A DNA stretch of 40,952 nucleotides from Lysobacter antibioticus HS124 (GTDB lineage Bacteria > Pseudomonadota > Gammaproteobacteria > Xanthomonadales > Xanthomonadaceae). The notes beneath the pieces were generated by a model. That model was not told the origin of the DNA, did no database searches, and was given only the letters and a program-made list of their open reading frames with translations. The stretch covers positions 1-40,952 of the forward strand of contig NZ_HG424505.1 of the NCBI RefSeq assembly GCF_000336385.2, written 5' to 3'. Shown here one piece after another: positions 10,012 through 17,859 of the stretch. Both the position numbers and the translations under genes were made by a program. Within the stretch, counting starts at the first letter, position 1. The number at the start of each line of letters is the position of its first letter.

Positions 10012-10087
10012 TGGTGGGCCCACCAGGATTCGAACCTGGAACCAAGGGATTATGAGTCCCCTGCTCTAACCGTTGAGCTATAGGCCC
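10012..10087 (-). tRNA. tRNA-Ile2, anticodon CAU
   Basis: On the minus strand the sequence folds as a full tRNA: acceptor GGGCCTA / TGGGCCC, D-arm AGCTCAACGGTTAGAGC, anticodon arm with loop CTCATAA, T-arm CCAGGTTCGAATCCTGG and encoded CCA. The CAT anticodon with the GACTCATAATC/TTGGT context resembles E. coli ileX rather than an elongator or initiator tRNA-Met. I therefore call tRNA-Ile2, whose C34 is converted to lysidine by TilS to read AUA. Its 5' half is the attachment site of the adjacent element, and the upstream DNA is now element sequence (end of the integrase gene). Confidence 0.9.
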
Positions 10088-10090
10088 GTG
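10047..10090. repeat. Left attachment repeat (44 bp), inside the intact tRNA
   Basis: Identical to 17816-17859. It covers the tRNA from the 3' side of the anticodon stem to its 5' end plus 3 flanking bases. Mismatches begin immediately outside on both sides (10046 G vs 17815 T; 10091 A vs 17860 C). Confidence 0.92.
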
Positions 10091-10097
10091 AAGGGTT

Positions 10098-11261
10098 TCA
10101 GCGCTTTCCCCGAGACCGCGTGTGTAATTTCGGTGTAATTCTGCGGGTTTTCAAGCGCGTCTGCAGGGCGGCCATCGCGACCTGCATCGAAGCCGCATGA
10201 GTATATCGCTCGGCCATCGCTCTCGTCTTCCATCCCCCCATTTGCTGGATGGTTGCCGCGTCCAGGCCGGCGTGCGCAGCGTTGGTCGCCATGGTATGCC
10301 GCATGGTGTGGGGGGTGACGTGCTTGCGCAGCTTTGCGCGCTTCACGCAGCGGGCGAAGATCGAGTTGATCTGGTAGACCCGCCCGGACGCGGCGCGCGC
10401 CGAGGGGAACAGGAACTCATCCGGCTCACGGCCAGCGATGAGCTTGGTCAGGTACTTGGCCAGCACTTCCGGGATTGGCTGCTCGCGCTCACCGGCCTTG
10501 TCCTTGTCGATCCACAGGATTCGCCTGGTCGGGTCGACGTCGCGGACGCGCAGCCCAAGAACGGCTTCATGTCGCGCGCCGGAGTACAGGGCGATCATCA
10601 CGAACGGGTGCGCGTGCTCGGACTGGTCTTCAGCGGCCGCCTGCAGCAACGCCGCGGCCTCCTCTGGGGTCAGGTAGACGAGTTTCCCCTTGGGCTCATG
10701 CTGGCGCTGTAGCTCTGGCACCACCGCCAGCAGTCGGCGCCGGCGCATCGTGTTGAGCATGTGCAGCAGCGCCGATCGCTCCCTATTGATCGTGCCTGGA
10801 CCGGCGCCTTCTCCCTTCCTGGTGGTCACGTAAGCCAGCCAGTCGTCGCTGGAGAGCCGCGCAACGCTCCGGGCGCCCAAATGCGGGGTCAGGTGCTCCT
10901 TGAAGCGCATCCGCTTCGTGGCGATGTCCTTGCCGTTGTGCTTCTCCAGGTAAGCCAAGTAGTCCTCGGCCGCGGCCTTGACGCTGCGCGGCGCCCCTTG
11001 CTTGCTGCCGACCACCCCATGGCCTGCCGCGCGCTTCTGGGCCTTGAGCTTGGCGACGACTTCCTCAGCCTGCGTCCTGGTGTACCCCTCGGACTCGAGG
11101 CCGACGACCTGGTGGTGCCGCGCGCGGGCGACCATCACGTTGACCGACCAGCGGCCGTCCCCGTTGGGGAGGCGGGTGTATACGATTCCGTGCTCGTTGA
11201 TCGATGCGCCAGGTCTCAGAGCGCGCATCGCGGGCCGCGTGAGCTTGGCAAAGGCTGTCAT
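10098..11261 (-). CDS. Tyrosine recombinase / integrase of the element
   Basis: 387 residues. Catalytic residues of the tyrosine recombinase family are visible: the first Arg in SGARHEAVLGL, the HTMRH box, a Trp in GGWKTRAMA and the nucleophilic Tyr in AERYTHA. The N-terminal half has a SAM-like core-binding region (VKAAAEDYLAYLEKH...), preceded by an AP2-like arm-binding segment. It should integrate and excise the element at the tRNA-Ile2 gene 11 bases from its stop codon. The start ATG overlaps the stop of the upstream Arc-like gene (ATGA), so the two are probably translationally coupled. Candidate arm-binding sites lie within its last codons. Transcription runs toward the tRNA. Confidence 0.95.
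   Translation of the reverse strand: MTAFAKLTRPAMRALRPGASINEHGIVYTRLPNGDGRWSVNVMVARARHHQVVGLESEGYTRTQAEEVVAKLKAQKRAAGHGVVGSKQGAPRSVKAAAEDYLAYLEKHNGKDIATKRMRFKEHLTPHLGARSVARLSSDDWLAYVTTRKGEGAGPGTINRERSALLHMLNTMRRRRLLAVVPELQRQHEPKGKLVYLTPEEAAALLQAAAEDQSEHAHPFVMIALYSGARHEAVLGLRVRDVDPTRRILWIDKDKAGEREQPIPEVLAKYLTKLIAGREPDEFLFPSARAASGRVYQINSIFARCVKRAKLRKHVTPHTMRHTMATNAAHAGLDAATIQQMGGWKTRAMAERYTHAASMQVAMAALQTRLKTRRITPKLHTRSRGKR
10122..10142. promoter_or_regulatory. Candidate left arm-type integrase sites
   Basis: Two copies of GTGTAATT lie 11 bases apart (10122 and 10133), 32 bases inside the left attachment repeat. The same pair with the same 11-base spacing occurs near the right end. Paired short direct repeats close to both ends are typical of integrase arm sites. 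This is inference from pattern only. Confidence 0.5.
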
Positions 11262-11692
11262 TCGGCCTTCGGAAAGAATACGTCGTTAATCAAGGCTTCG
11301 ATTTCCACATTCAGCACCCCGATTCGGGCGACGGCCTCAGTTGCCTGGGCTTCTAGCTGCGCCACACGCGCCTCAAGTGCAGCTTTGTGCTCAATTTCTT
11401 CGATCTTCCTTGGCGATTTTAGGCGGTCAATCTCTGCCTTAAGCGCCTTCTTCTGTGCGAGCAAAACACGTGTTTCAGAGATGAGGTCGGCGCGCTCGAG
11501 CATCTTCGTTTCAGCGGCGCGTCCACTGACGCTGAATCCACTGAAGATGCTTCGCTTCGCCTGAAAGCTTTGCTCAAGGCGGTGGACAACCTCTGCGCCA
11601 AAGGTCCTTCCTGAATCCTTGGCCGACTCCATGAGTCGATCCTTGAGCTCAGCTGGGAGCCGGATATTGGTTTGCGGGTCGTTTCTGGCCAT
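11258..11692 (-). CDS. Arc-type ribbon-helix-helix regulator with coiled coil
   Basis: 144 residues from the ATG at 11692. A longer upstream reading would run through the operator repeats and lacks support. The N-terminus (MARNDPQTNIRLPAELKDRL) is an Arc/MetJ-like beta strand followed by two helices ending about residue 45. Residues 60-135 are a long charged coiled coil (RADLISETRVLLAQKKAL...). It probably binds as a dimer or tetramer to the three repeated sites just upstream of its own start and so controls both divergent transcripts. The gene is coupled to the integrase by a 4-base overlap. The Arc fold is clear; the role as element repressor is inferred. Confidence 0.82.
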   Translation of the reverse strand: MARNDPQTNIRLPAELKDRLMESAKDSGRTFGAEVVHRLEQSFQAKRSIFSGFSVSGRAAETKMLERADLISETRVLLAQKKALKAEIDRLKSPRKIEEIEHKAALEARVAQLEAQATEAVARIGVLNVEIEALINDVFFPKAE

Positions 11693-11707
11693 ACGAAAAG
11701 ATACCAC

Positions 11708-11773
11708 GTAGCACGGGGCTTGCATCAAATGTAGCCCCGTGCTACAAGGTGGCCATTGGTAGCACGGGGCTAC
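11708..11773. promoter_or_regulatory. Triple operator between divergent regulators
   Basis: Three copies of the 15-base word GTAGCACGGGGCTAC occur at 11708-11722 (last two bases diverged), 11731-11745 (inverse orientation) and 11759-11773. Each copy has 5-base palindromic arms GTAGC/GCTAC. They fill the gap between the Arc-like gene (minus) and the AlpA-like gene (plus). Alternating orientation and spacing of about 23 and 28 bases suggest a cooperative switch. Confidence 0.7.
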
Positions 11774-11789
11774 CTTGGAGGCCAGCAAA

Positions 11790-16824: not shown

Positions 16825-17073
16825 TCACCTTCCATCGATTTCAAAGTAGTTGGTCGGCCCTAAGCCCGAGATGATATCGAGTGTTGCGAGCATCGCCGCC
16901 TTTGTGGTGTAAGCCTCACCATATGCCATCGGCTCCCCGTTTCCTCCGACAAGCCGCCAGCGCCATTGCCCATGGGTCGGTGATGCATGTCCTCCCAGCG
17001 CATTGAGTAGAGACGCCTGCTCCCCGACCTTCAGCCCTTCCCGGTAAATCTGAAAATACGGTTTTCCAGCCAT
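16825..17073 (-). CDS. DUF1508/YegP-like small protein
   Basis: 82 residues from the ATG at 17073, which has GGGAGGG 6 bases upstream; a longer upstream reading has no such site. The pattern KPYFQIYREG...GQWRWRLVGGNGEPMAYGEAYTTKAAMLATLDIISG...YFEID matches one YegP-type repeat, in which W-RW/RL-NGE and an aromatic-TTKA segment are conserved. Chromosomal relatives often have two repeats; this has one. Its function in any organism is poorly known. It is the only gene in the middle of the element on the minus strand, with its own ribosome site and terminator, so it looks like an independently expressed cargo (moron-like) gene. Confidence 0.65.
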   Translation of the reverse strand: MAGKPYFQIYREGLKVGEQASLLNALGGHASPTHGQWRWRLVGGNGEPMAYGEAYTTKAAMLATLDIISGLGPTNYFEIDGR

Positions 17074-17168
17074 GTCGATCCCTCCCTGTGGTTCCAGGAA
17101 TAACGGGTTGGGGGGCATGCTGCGGCCAAGTCTCCGCTCTTGCGACGAGCCCGCCATAGCGTGGCGCC

Positions 17169-17420
17169 ATGGCGATATCAGACAAGATTCCGTGGCAGGA
17201 GCTGGCGCTCACCGCCTCCGAGTGCGGTGAGCTCTGGGGCATCACCCCGGAGCACTTCCTGGCTACGATCGCGTGCAAGCCGTCGTTCCCGGTCCGCCTG
17301 ACCCGGAAGCCGGCGACCTGGAAGGCGGGCGAGGTGATCGCCTGGCGCGATGAGAACCGGGCCGGCAATCGACCGCTACGAACGAGCCGGCTCAAACGCG
17401 AAGAGCGAGATTGCGAATGA
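17169..17420 (+). CDS. AlpA-like helix-turn-helix protein
   Basis: 83 residues. LALTASECGELWGITPEHFLATIACKP forms the recognition helix pair, then FPVRLTRKPATWKAGEVIAWRDENR is the wing and basic end expected for AlpA-like regulators. It is divergent from the DUF1508-like gene, and 95 bases separate the two starts. Its stop overlaps the start of the next AlpA-like gene. No clear ribosome site is seen. It could regulate late or cargo genes of the element. Confidence 0.65.
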   Translation: MAISDKIPWQELALTASECGELWGITPEHFLATIACKPSFPVRLTRKPATWKAGEVIAWRDENRAGNRPLRTSRLKREERDCE

Positions 17421-17668
17421 CCGATGCGTCCATCGCCACATTGGCCGCCCTGCTGACTGGCGATTGCTGGCTGTCTGCTGACGCGTGCGCGGTGTTCCTA
17501 GGCCTAACCACCAAGAAGGGCGAGCCAAACCGGCGCGGATTCCTGGAGCGCGTAGCATGCCGCTCCAGCTTTCCGAAGCCGCTGATCATCGGCAACGAGA
17601 AGAAGTGGAAAAAGTCCGAGGTCGCCTTGTGGGCCGAGGATGAGCGGCGCCACCCATCAGCCCGTTAG
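17417..17668 (+). CDS. Second AlpA-like small regulator
   Basis: 83 residues from the ATG at 17417, overlapping the previous TGA (ATGA). A TTG at 17411 is the alternative start. LSADACAVFLGLTTKKGEPNRRGFLERVACRSSFPKPLI and KKWKKSEVALWAEDERR are spaced as in its neighbour and point to the same winged-helix fold. It is the last gene before the right end. The gene pair probably arose by duplication followed by strong divergence. Confidence 0.6.
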   Translation: MTDASIATLAALLTGDCWLSADACAVFLGLTTKKGEPNRRGFLERVACRSSFPKPLIIGNEKKWKKSEVALWAEDERRHPSAR

Positions 17669-17670
17669 TT

Positions 17671-17690
17671 GGTGTAATTCCTGTGTAATC
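17671..17690. promoter_or_regulatory. Candidate right arm-type integrase sites
   Basis: GTGTAATT at 17672 and GTGTAATC at 17683 are 11 bases apart, the same word and spacing as at 10122-10142, and lie about 125 bases inside the right attachment repeat. Confidence 0.5.
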
Positions 17691-17815
17691 GTGCCGGAAA
17701 TTGCAGCCATTTCACGGTGATCGGGTGAAAGCAAGGGAAATGCAGATGCCGAGAAAACAGCTTGTTTTTGCGACTATTTACCACTCAAGGCGACGTGCGG
17801 AAACGCTTCGGGAGT

Positions 17816-17859
17816 GGATTATGAGTCCCCTGCTCTAACCGTTGAGCTATAGGCCCGTG
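17816..17859. repeat. Right attachment repeat, orphan 5' half of the tRNA
   Basis: A 44-base identical copy of 10047-10090. Only the 5' half of tRNA-Ile2 is present, so this copy cannot make a tRNA. It marks where the uninterrupted tRNA gene originally met its own upstream DNA. Confidence 0.92.

Follow-up and report, generated by a model that had tools for sequence, protein, structure and literature searches.

The window analyzed here, one whole contig of 40,952 nucleotides from Lysobacter antibioticus HS124 (NZ_HG424505.1; G000:C66 in the host genome), carries an integrated island at 10047–17859 whose sole recognized virion gene encodes a tail tape measure protein (TMP). As an initial annotation made from the sequence had proposed, the island, 7.77 kb in size, is bounded by perfect attachment (att) repeats, which are 44 nt long (Table 1). 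Its ends and its insertion are certain because a second genome of the same species, G205, carries the uninterrupted site with exactly one 44-bp att (G205:C2:425033–425076). The left flank (window 8400–10090) matches G205:C2:425033–426722 at 100% identity; the right flank (window 17816–19200) matches the adjoining G205:C2:423692–425076 at 99% identity, and the two matches overlap by one att. Judging by the coordinates, att spans the 5′ half of tRNA-Met up to the anticodon loop and not the usual 3′ end, the one point of correction here. Integration therefore cuts tRNA-Met off from the sequence originally upstream of it, and half a tRNA stays behind at the opposite end of the island. Two related islands described below, L069 and L087, read as integrated at tRNA 3′ ends, unlike the island in the window.

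Thirteen open reading frames (ORFs) of the island, ten and a further three, were scanned. Domain matches substantiate the integrase and the Arc/AlpA switch of the initial annotation, and the TMP gene is complete as claimed, with 718 intact codons in a single open frame free of degradation; its TMP_2 match lies under Pfam's cutoff. Among the thirteen ORFs, as had been stated, none was recognized as a terminase, portal, capsid, tube, tip, or lysis gene, and eight virion proteins of a siphoprophage residing in the same genome have no match anywhere in the window. Five small ORFs match no family in Pfam or PHROG, the last of them showing two marginal Pfam matches (0.045 and 0.046). A promoter scan near the TMP gene returned nothing.

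Table 1. Features of the island and its integration site (positions of the window).
Feature	Coordinates	Strand	Evidence and remarks
tRNA-Met (CAT), integration site	10012..10087	-	overlapped by left att
att repeat, left	10047..10090		44 nt, 100% identical to right copy; within tRNA-Met 5′ half
tyrosine integrase, 387 aa	10098..11261	-	PF00589 3.4e-29, phrog_1 1e-52
Arc/ribbon-helix-helix regulator, 144 aa from internal ATG	11258..11692	-	PF03869 1.3e-8 on longer ORF 11258-11815
AlpA-type HTH_17 regulator or excisionase	11790..12017	+	PF12728 2.1e-9, phrog_66 1e-7 on ORF 11775-12017
five small ORFs in a run, function not assigned	12082..13243	+	ends 12351, 12571, 12771, 13013, 13243
winged-helix replication-initiator-like protein, chassis hallmark	13240..13659	+	weak O-like PHROG 0.008; predicted structure; 118 loci
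iteron-like repeats, putative origin	13663..13752	+	4 copies of GTCGCTATGCGGAGCA (one inverted, one with mismatch), strong hairpin
17-nt word common to resident siphoprophage	14148..14164	+	prophage copy in ORF beside DnaB gene; evidence moderate at best
TMP, 718 aa, intact	14268..16424	+	phrog_27166 9e-31; TMP_2 7e-6; alignments; tree
DUF1508 protein	16825..17157	-	PF07411 6.7e-9
small protein, no Pfam	17169..17420	+	relatives (66% and 56%) twice in locus L041
small protein, no Pfam	17417..17668	+	open reading frame
att repeat, right	17816..17859		44 nt, 100% identical to left copy; holds 5′ half-tRNA copy

The winged-helix protein was modeled with AlphaFold from 31 aligned sequences (mean pLDDT 74.7, pTM 0.65). 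The seven best PDB matches of this model comprise five chains of 4pql, 5kbj, and 4pt7—entries for a DNA-binding protein, a Rep–DNA complex, and an initiator—and two DnaD chains. All seven belong to replication proteins, but the matches are weak (E 0.02–0.06, TM about 0.42) and are followed by general winged-helix regulators. Right after the stop codon, GTCGCTATGCGGAGCA occurs in three exact copies and one mismatched copy; with three mismatches allowed, four or more copies arose in 2 of 100 shuffles. The repeat stretch folds strongly (z −5.3). A 13-mer in at least three copies directly follows the initiator gene at 41 of 86 loci, as against 2 of 230 control stretches. The winged-helix gene with iteron-like repeats noted initially was thus recovered, its fold supported by the model, and the natural reading of the pair is that of a putative replication initiator with its origin.

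This initiator marks a recurrent chassis, consisting of integrase, regulator, winged-helix initiator, and iterons. It was found in 45 of 395 genomes of the family (E 1e-5) and in 17 of 200 genomes of the order (E 1e-20), three of the latter belonging to the host's own family. A profile built from a six-row alignment located it at 51 loci of an 84,980-genome collection and on 20 viral contigs, a set in which a search with the single protein had found nothing. After removal of identical copies (three loci, and L026–L031 beforehand) of weak or contig-edge matches (G056, G112, G167, G210, G212, G231, G237, G293, and G327), and of G452, 118 non-identical loci were examined. Loci counted as non-identical when they differed in the 300 nt at the initiator, and close relatives are therefore still among them. 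An integrase lies upstream of the initiator in 97 of them. Cargo was called by phmmer queries (E 1e-5) on ORFs of at least 200 aa downstream of the initiator and on the same strand; dropping the position and strand filter added two matches, neither of them a TMP. By these queries a virion gene is present at 46 of the 118 loci: a TMP at nine, ejection-type proteins at 27, a capsid gene alone at seven, and capsid, portal, and terminase at three. Eighteen of the 27 ejection-type loci are viral contigs, and many of the 27 are close relatives.

All nine TMP genes stand downstream of the initiator and are co-oriented with it, no TMP match occurs elsewhere in the 118 loci, and the TMP-bearing loci span at least five genera. 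The conserved gene order that the initial annotation proposed to look for in islands combining an integrase and a TMP is found. Domain matches support eight of the nine TMPs; the ninth (L247) was called by phmmer alone. Exact repeats of at least 20 nt within the fetched stretch surround the element at 25 loci, giving sizes of 4.0–12.7 kb. Six of these carry a TMP: the island in the window, L069 from the same family (9.7 kb), L087 from Xanthomonas arboricola (10.6 kb), L089 from X. hortorum (11.9 kb), L111 from Microbulbifer halophilus (10.5 kb), and L128 from Pseudomonas entomophila (9.8 kb). Among the remainder, four have a capsid gene only and 15 have no virion gene. A further island, L129 of Pseudomonas sp. 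dw_358 (13.45 kb), showed its 48-nt att once longer stretches were taken and stands outside the 25-locus count; the TMP is the only virion gene that the queries recognized in it. The island in the window and L129 are thus two att-bounded islands with a TMP as sole recognized virion gene. A capsid gene accompanies the TMP in L069, L111, L128, and L153, and a capsid-like gene and a portal gene accompany it in L087 and L089, where the 330-aa capsid-like protein is a weak match (E 5e-4 in one scan, none at 1e-4 in another). In no locus does a TMP occur together with capsid, portal, and terminase, in a query set that did not include tube or tip genes.

The TMPs themselves appear to be of diverse origin. 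In a tree built from residues 1–320, seven island TMPs placed among 16 others require four to six label changes, and the island TMPs are monophyletic in none of 200 bootstrap trees. Of the nine TMP loci, this tree covers all but L129 and L247, with L128 represented by its first piece; 10 of its 20 inner branches are unresolved, and L153 sits on one very long branch. The tree indicates that the islands have a chassis in common but acquired their TMPs independently, from different siphophages. Uninterrupted TMP ORFs of 718–1168 aa are present at eight of the nine loci, the remaining one being split. Between the X. arboricola (L087) and X. hortorum (L089) islands, dN/dS is low for the TMP (0.126) as well as for the capsid-like protein (0.105), the initiator (0.034), and the integrase (0.181), with dS in this pair ranging from 0.29 (integrase) to 0.70 (TMP). 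The portal gene of L089 is interrupted, yet its TMP is intact. The interruption is an insertion of approximately 1.15 kb near codons 216–218 (L089:13768–14923), which is not found in the X. arboricola island.

On balance, the island is probably an integrated satellite resembling phage-inducible chromosomal islands (PICIs) whose own TMP replaces that of a helper in borrowed siphophage tails. In such a cycle, the integrase and the AlpA-type protein would excise the island, and the winged-helix protein would start replication at the iterons. Nearly the whole virion would be borrowed from a siphophage helper, with the island TMP built into the tails instead of the helper's. Satellite particles would then have a tail length set by the 718 residues of the satellite protein and a satellite-encoded injection step. 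Tail length amounts to approximately 0.15 nm per TMP residue, and the satellite tail would be roughly 12 nm shorter than one built on a 798-residue TMP like that of the resident prophage.

Precedents make such a swap plausible. The phage-inducible chromosomal island-like elements (PLE) are reported to encode a TMP that replaces the helper's in virions, yielding chimeric tails, and removal of this TMP cuts transduction by 96–99.9% (PMC12987554). In addition, a phage furnished with a foreign TMP gave infectious particles (PMC10884400). PLE were presented in 2026 as the first satellite family with chimeric tails, and a figure legend of the same report (Extended Data Fig. 10) gives a sampling of capsid-forming PICIs (cf-PICIs) carrying putative tmp genes (PMC12987554). 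Satellite use of a TMP in helper tails is therefore already published, and the earlier statement that no described satellite class carries one has been out of date since March 2026 (PMC12987554); what the window presents is a different, more minimal layout. The initial annotation's further suggestion, a satellite that places its own TMP in helper tails, holds as far as the satellite-type island is concerned, the use in helper tails being demonstrated in PLE only (PMC12987554). Nor does the TMP gene define a class, as had been supposed: the chassis does so, with the TMP among several virion cargoes that it carries.

A candidate helper exists in the same genome. On contig G000:C21 lies a siphoprophage that has genes for terminase, portal, TMP, and tail proteins; two further ORFs of it match the PHROG-annotated capsid proteins of L132 and L153 (27–28%) and the annotated protease of L111 (33%). 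The proposed alignment of island and resident TMPs bears out in part: the two proteins are alike over their last 215 residues (44.7%) and over a short N-terminal segment, and their middle parts are not. Over its whole length, the island TMP is closest to the TMP of a prophage in genome G217 (45.5%). Four tail genes of the latter prophage are 56–70% identical to those of the resident one, so in G217 an island-type TMP stands beside a closely related tail tip. It is at the tail tip that the TMP C-terminus docks.

A comparison aimed at a packaging site common to island and prophage gave, as the longest exact word, only 17 nt (window 14148–14164; repeated in the prophage at G000:C21 7198–7214 and 7447–7463). 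This length alone is not significant, since 26 of 300 shuffles gave a word at least as long, and the word is treated as a lead. Shuffle figures for the island minus its TMP and for other prophages were set aside as an artifact of N runs. One 16-mer matches three places in the prophage, a result attained by none of 200 shuffles and none of four other window segments but by 2 of 38 segments of other loci. Taken as a 16-mer with one mismatch or fewer, the 17-nt word has three matches genome-wide, all in island and prophage (control 0), and one match in 19 other genomes of the genus. Since FERVS is read in frame at both places, coding may explain the sharing; it may otherwise reflect the capture of an origin element, or chance.

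Several observations weigh against a TMP swap. By the queries used, 72 of the 118 chassis loci carry no virion gene, and at L128 the TMP gene is broken into ORFs of 263 and 790 codons. Island and resident TMPs differ in their middle parts. The unequal dS between genes of the Xanthomonas pair points to possible exchange of the TMP with phages, so that the selection seen could partly be a phage's. No packaging gene, TerS, cos, or pac site was recognized in the island. Finally, PLE pair their TMP with a tail-assembly chaperone (TMP/TAC/BhuB), whereas neither a chaperone nor a hub gene was recognized here.

A prophage decayed to an integrase, regulators, and a TMP would also leave a single recognized virion gene, and the stretch at 13790–14264, which reads as devoid of recognized genes, as well as the split TMP of L128, would suit such an origin. 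However, the att repeats are clean, the compact chassis recurs at 118 loci with initiator and iterons, none of these combines a TMP with capsid, portal, and terminase by the queries used, the island in the window and L129 have the TMP as sole recognized virion gene, and TMP dN/dS in the Xanthomonas pair is 0.13. Decay is thus unlikely, the least probable of the explanations considered here, and the absence, by these queries, of full modules beside a TMP of constant placement agrees with the initial annotation on this point. A slightly different history, in which a cf-PICI relative lost its head genes and kept the TMP as a remnant of a larger borrowed module, now without function in this copy, would account for the relatives that carry capsid or capsid-like genes beside a TMP. 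Yet the TMP remains intact where the portal of L089 is interrupted, and TMPs that do not form one clade are at odds with loss from a single ancestral module; we regard this history as improbable.

There is a small chance that the TMP is instead an anti-phage weapon, a dominant-negative protein that poisons the assembly of incoming or helper phages and is not used in satellite particles. Tail assembly is a known defense target, as described for Tab, Tai, and Rta (PMC10884400, PMC11364771, PMC12987554), and the C-terminal end of the island TMP is common to resident-type siphophages. A fragment would suffice as a poison, though, and long ORFs have been kept; moreover, deletion of the PLE TMP is reported to lower satellite transduction (PMC12987554).

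With respect to known satellites, the island has the PICI plan of a small att-bounded element with integrase, regulator, and replication gene, PICIs being approximately 10–15 kb in size (PMC11364771). Like SaPIbov5 (Ccm), it is an att-bounded island with one structural homologue, there of the capsid protein (PMC8569155); unlike in PICIs and SaPIbov5, this structural gene belongs to the tail. PICMI share the minimal set of int, alpA, and replication gene but are described with a fis site and a DUF3987/DUF5906 primase (PMC10803314), in contrast to tRNA-Met, the winged-helix initiator, and no primase here. The island would share with PLE the satellite-borne TMP for chimeric tails. It differs in host (in the family of X. 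arboricola, not V. cholerae), in replicon, and in its siphophage rather than contractile tail type, and the PLE helper ICP1 is lytic. P4 is characterized by psu, delta, sid, and alpha primase genes; these families are absent from the matches of the thirteen island ORFs, which sets the island apart from P4-like satellites. In cf-PICIs, integrase, regulator, and replication gene are followed by virion genes including their own capsid, portal, and terminase, whereas no head or packaging gene was recognized in the island. Three other chassis loci (L034, L035, and L155) look closer to cf-PICIs: they encode capsid, portal, and large terminase, and no TMP was recognized in them. Among the matches listed in a literature search, outside which preprints and most subscription papers lay, no title or abstract opening described this lineage.

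Other cargoes on the chassis invite a wider and more tentative reading. A largely gammaproteobacterial satellite lineage with one winged-helix initiator may repeatedly capture the injection component of the phage it parasitizes—a TMP from long-tailed and ejection proteins from short-tailed phages—with the swap serving entry into helper lysogens; we hold this to be possible but doubtful. The idea is suggested by the fact that TMPs and ejection proteins both form a DNA conduit and are both sites of escape from superinfection exclusion, as reported for TMP changes in TP-J34 and HK97 and ejection protein changes in P22 (PMC10883804). Capsid genes are likewise frequent on the chassis. If the idea holds, a swapped part would let satellite particles into helper lysogens, which are the best hosts for a satellite, and this lineage would exert its control at injection instead of at capsid size. 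A chassis distinct from PLE with TMPs in at least five genera would show a broader satellite manipulation of tails and injection, and the island in the window would offer a minimal system in which to follow one swapped TMP with respect to tail length, particle discrimination, and passage through superinfection exclusion.

A chassis locus of Vibrio furnissii (18.6 kb, 36-nt att) encodes three ejection proteins of short-tailed phages, and six others of its 18 listed ORFs, when scanned, gave no head gene; this stretch may be composite because a second replication-type protein is among the scanned ORFs. Three ejection proteins also occur at a V. proteolyticus locus, where att has just 15 nt, and one occurs in L038 (15.2 kb, 52-nt att). 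Stenotrophomonas-type loci (L086, L088, and most of L136–L154), to which most of the viral contigs belong, carry a conserved module of three to four genes (about 264, 515, 800, and 231 aa), possibly T7-like internal proteins. The ejection label is based there on one protein, which has a lytic transglycosylase domain, and an 811-aa neighbor in the module matches no convincing family. L086 and L088 are not counted as att-bounded since no att was found within 17–18 kb downstream. The Microbulbifer locus encodes, in addition to the genes named above, a K-like minor-tail protein and a fragment whose match to a long tail protein is confined to the N-terminal part of the latter (L111:15688–16799). 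A 16-kb entry named Pseudomonas phage vB_Pae_U1 (L064; PP003913) has integrase, cox, and initiator in the same layout with no annotated virion gene, and appears to be an integrated island, not a phage. At L112, which has a 28-nt repeat, a 1030-aa ORF (L112:13332–16424) reads at its start like a Cas9-type nuclease.

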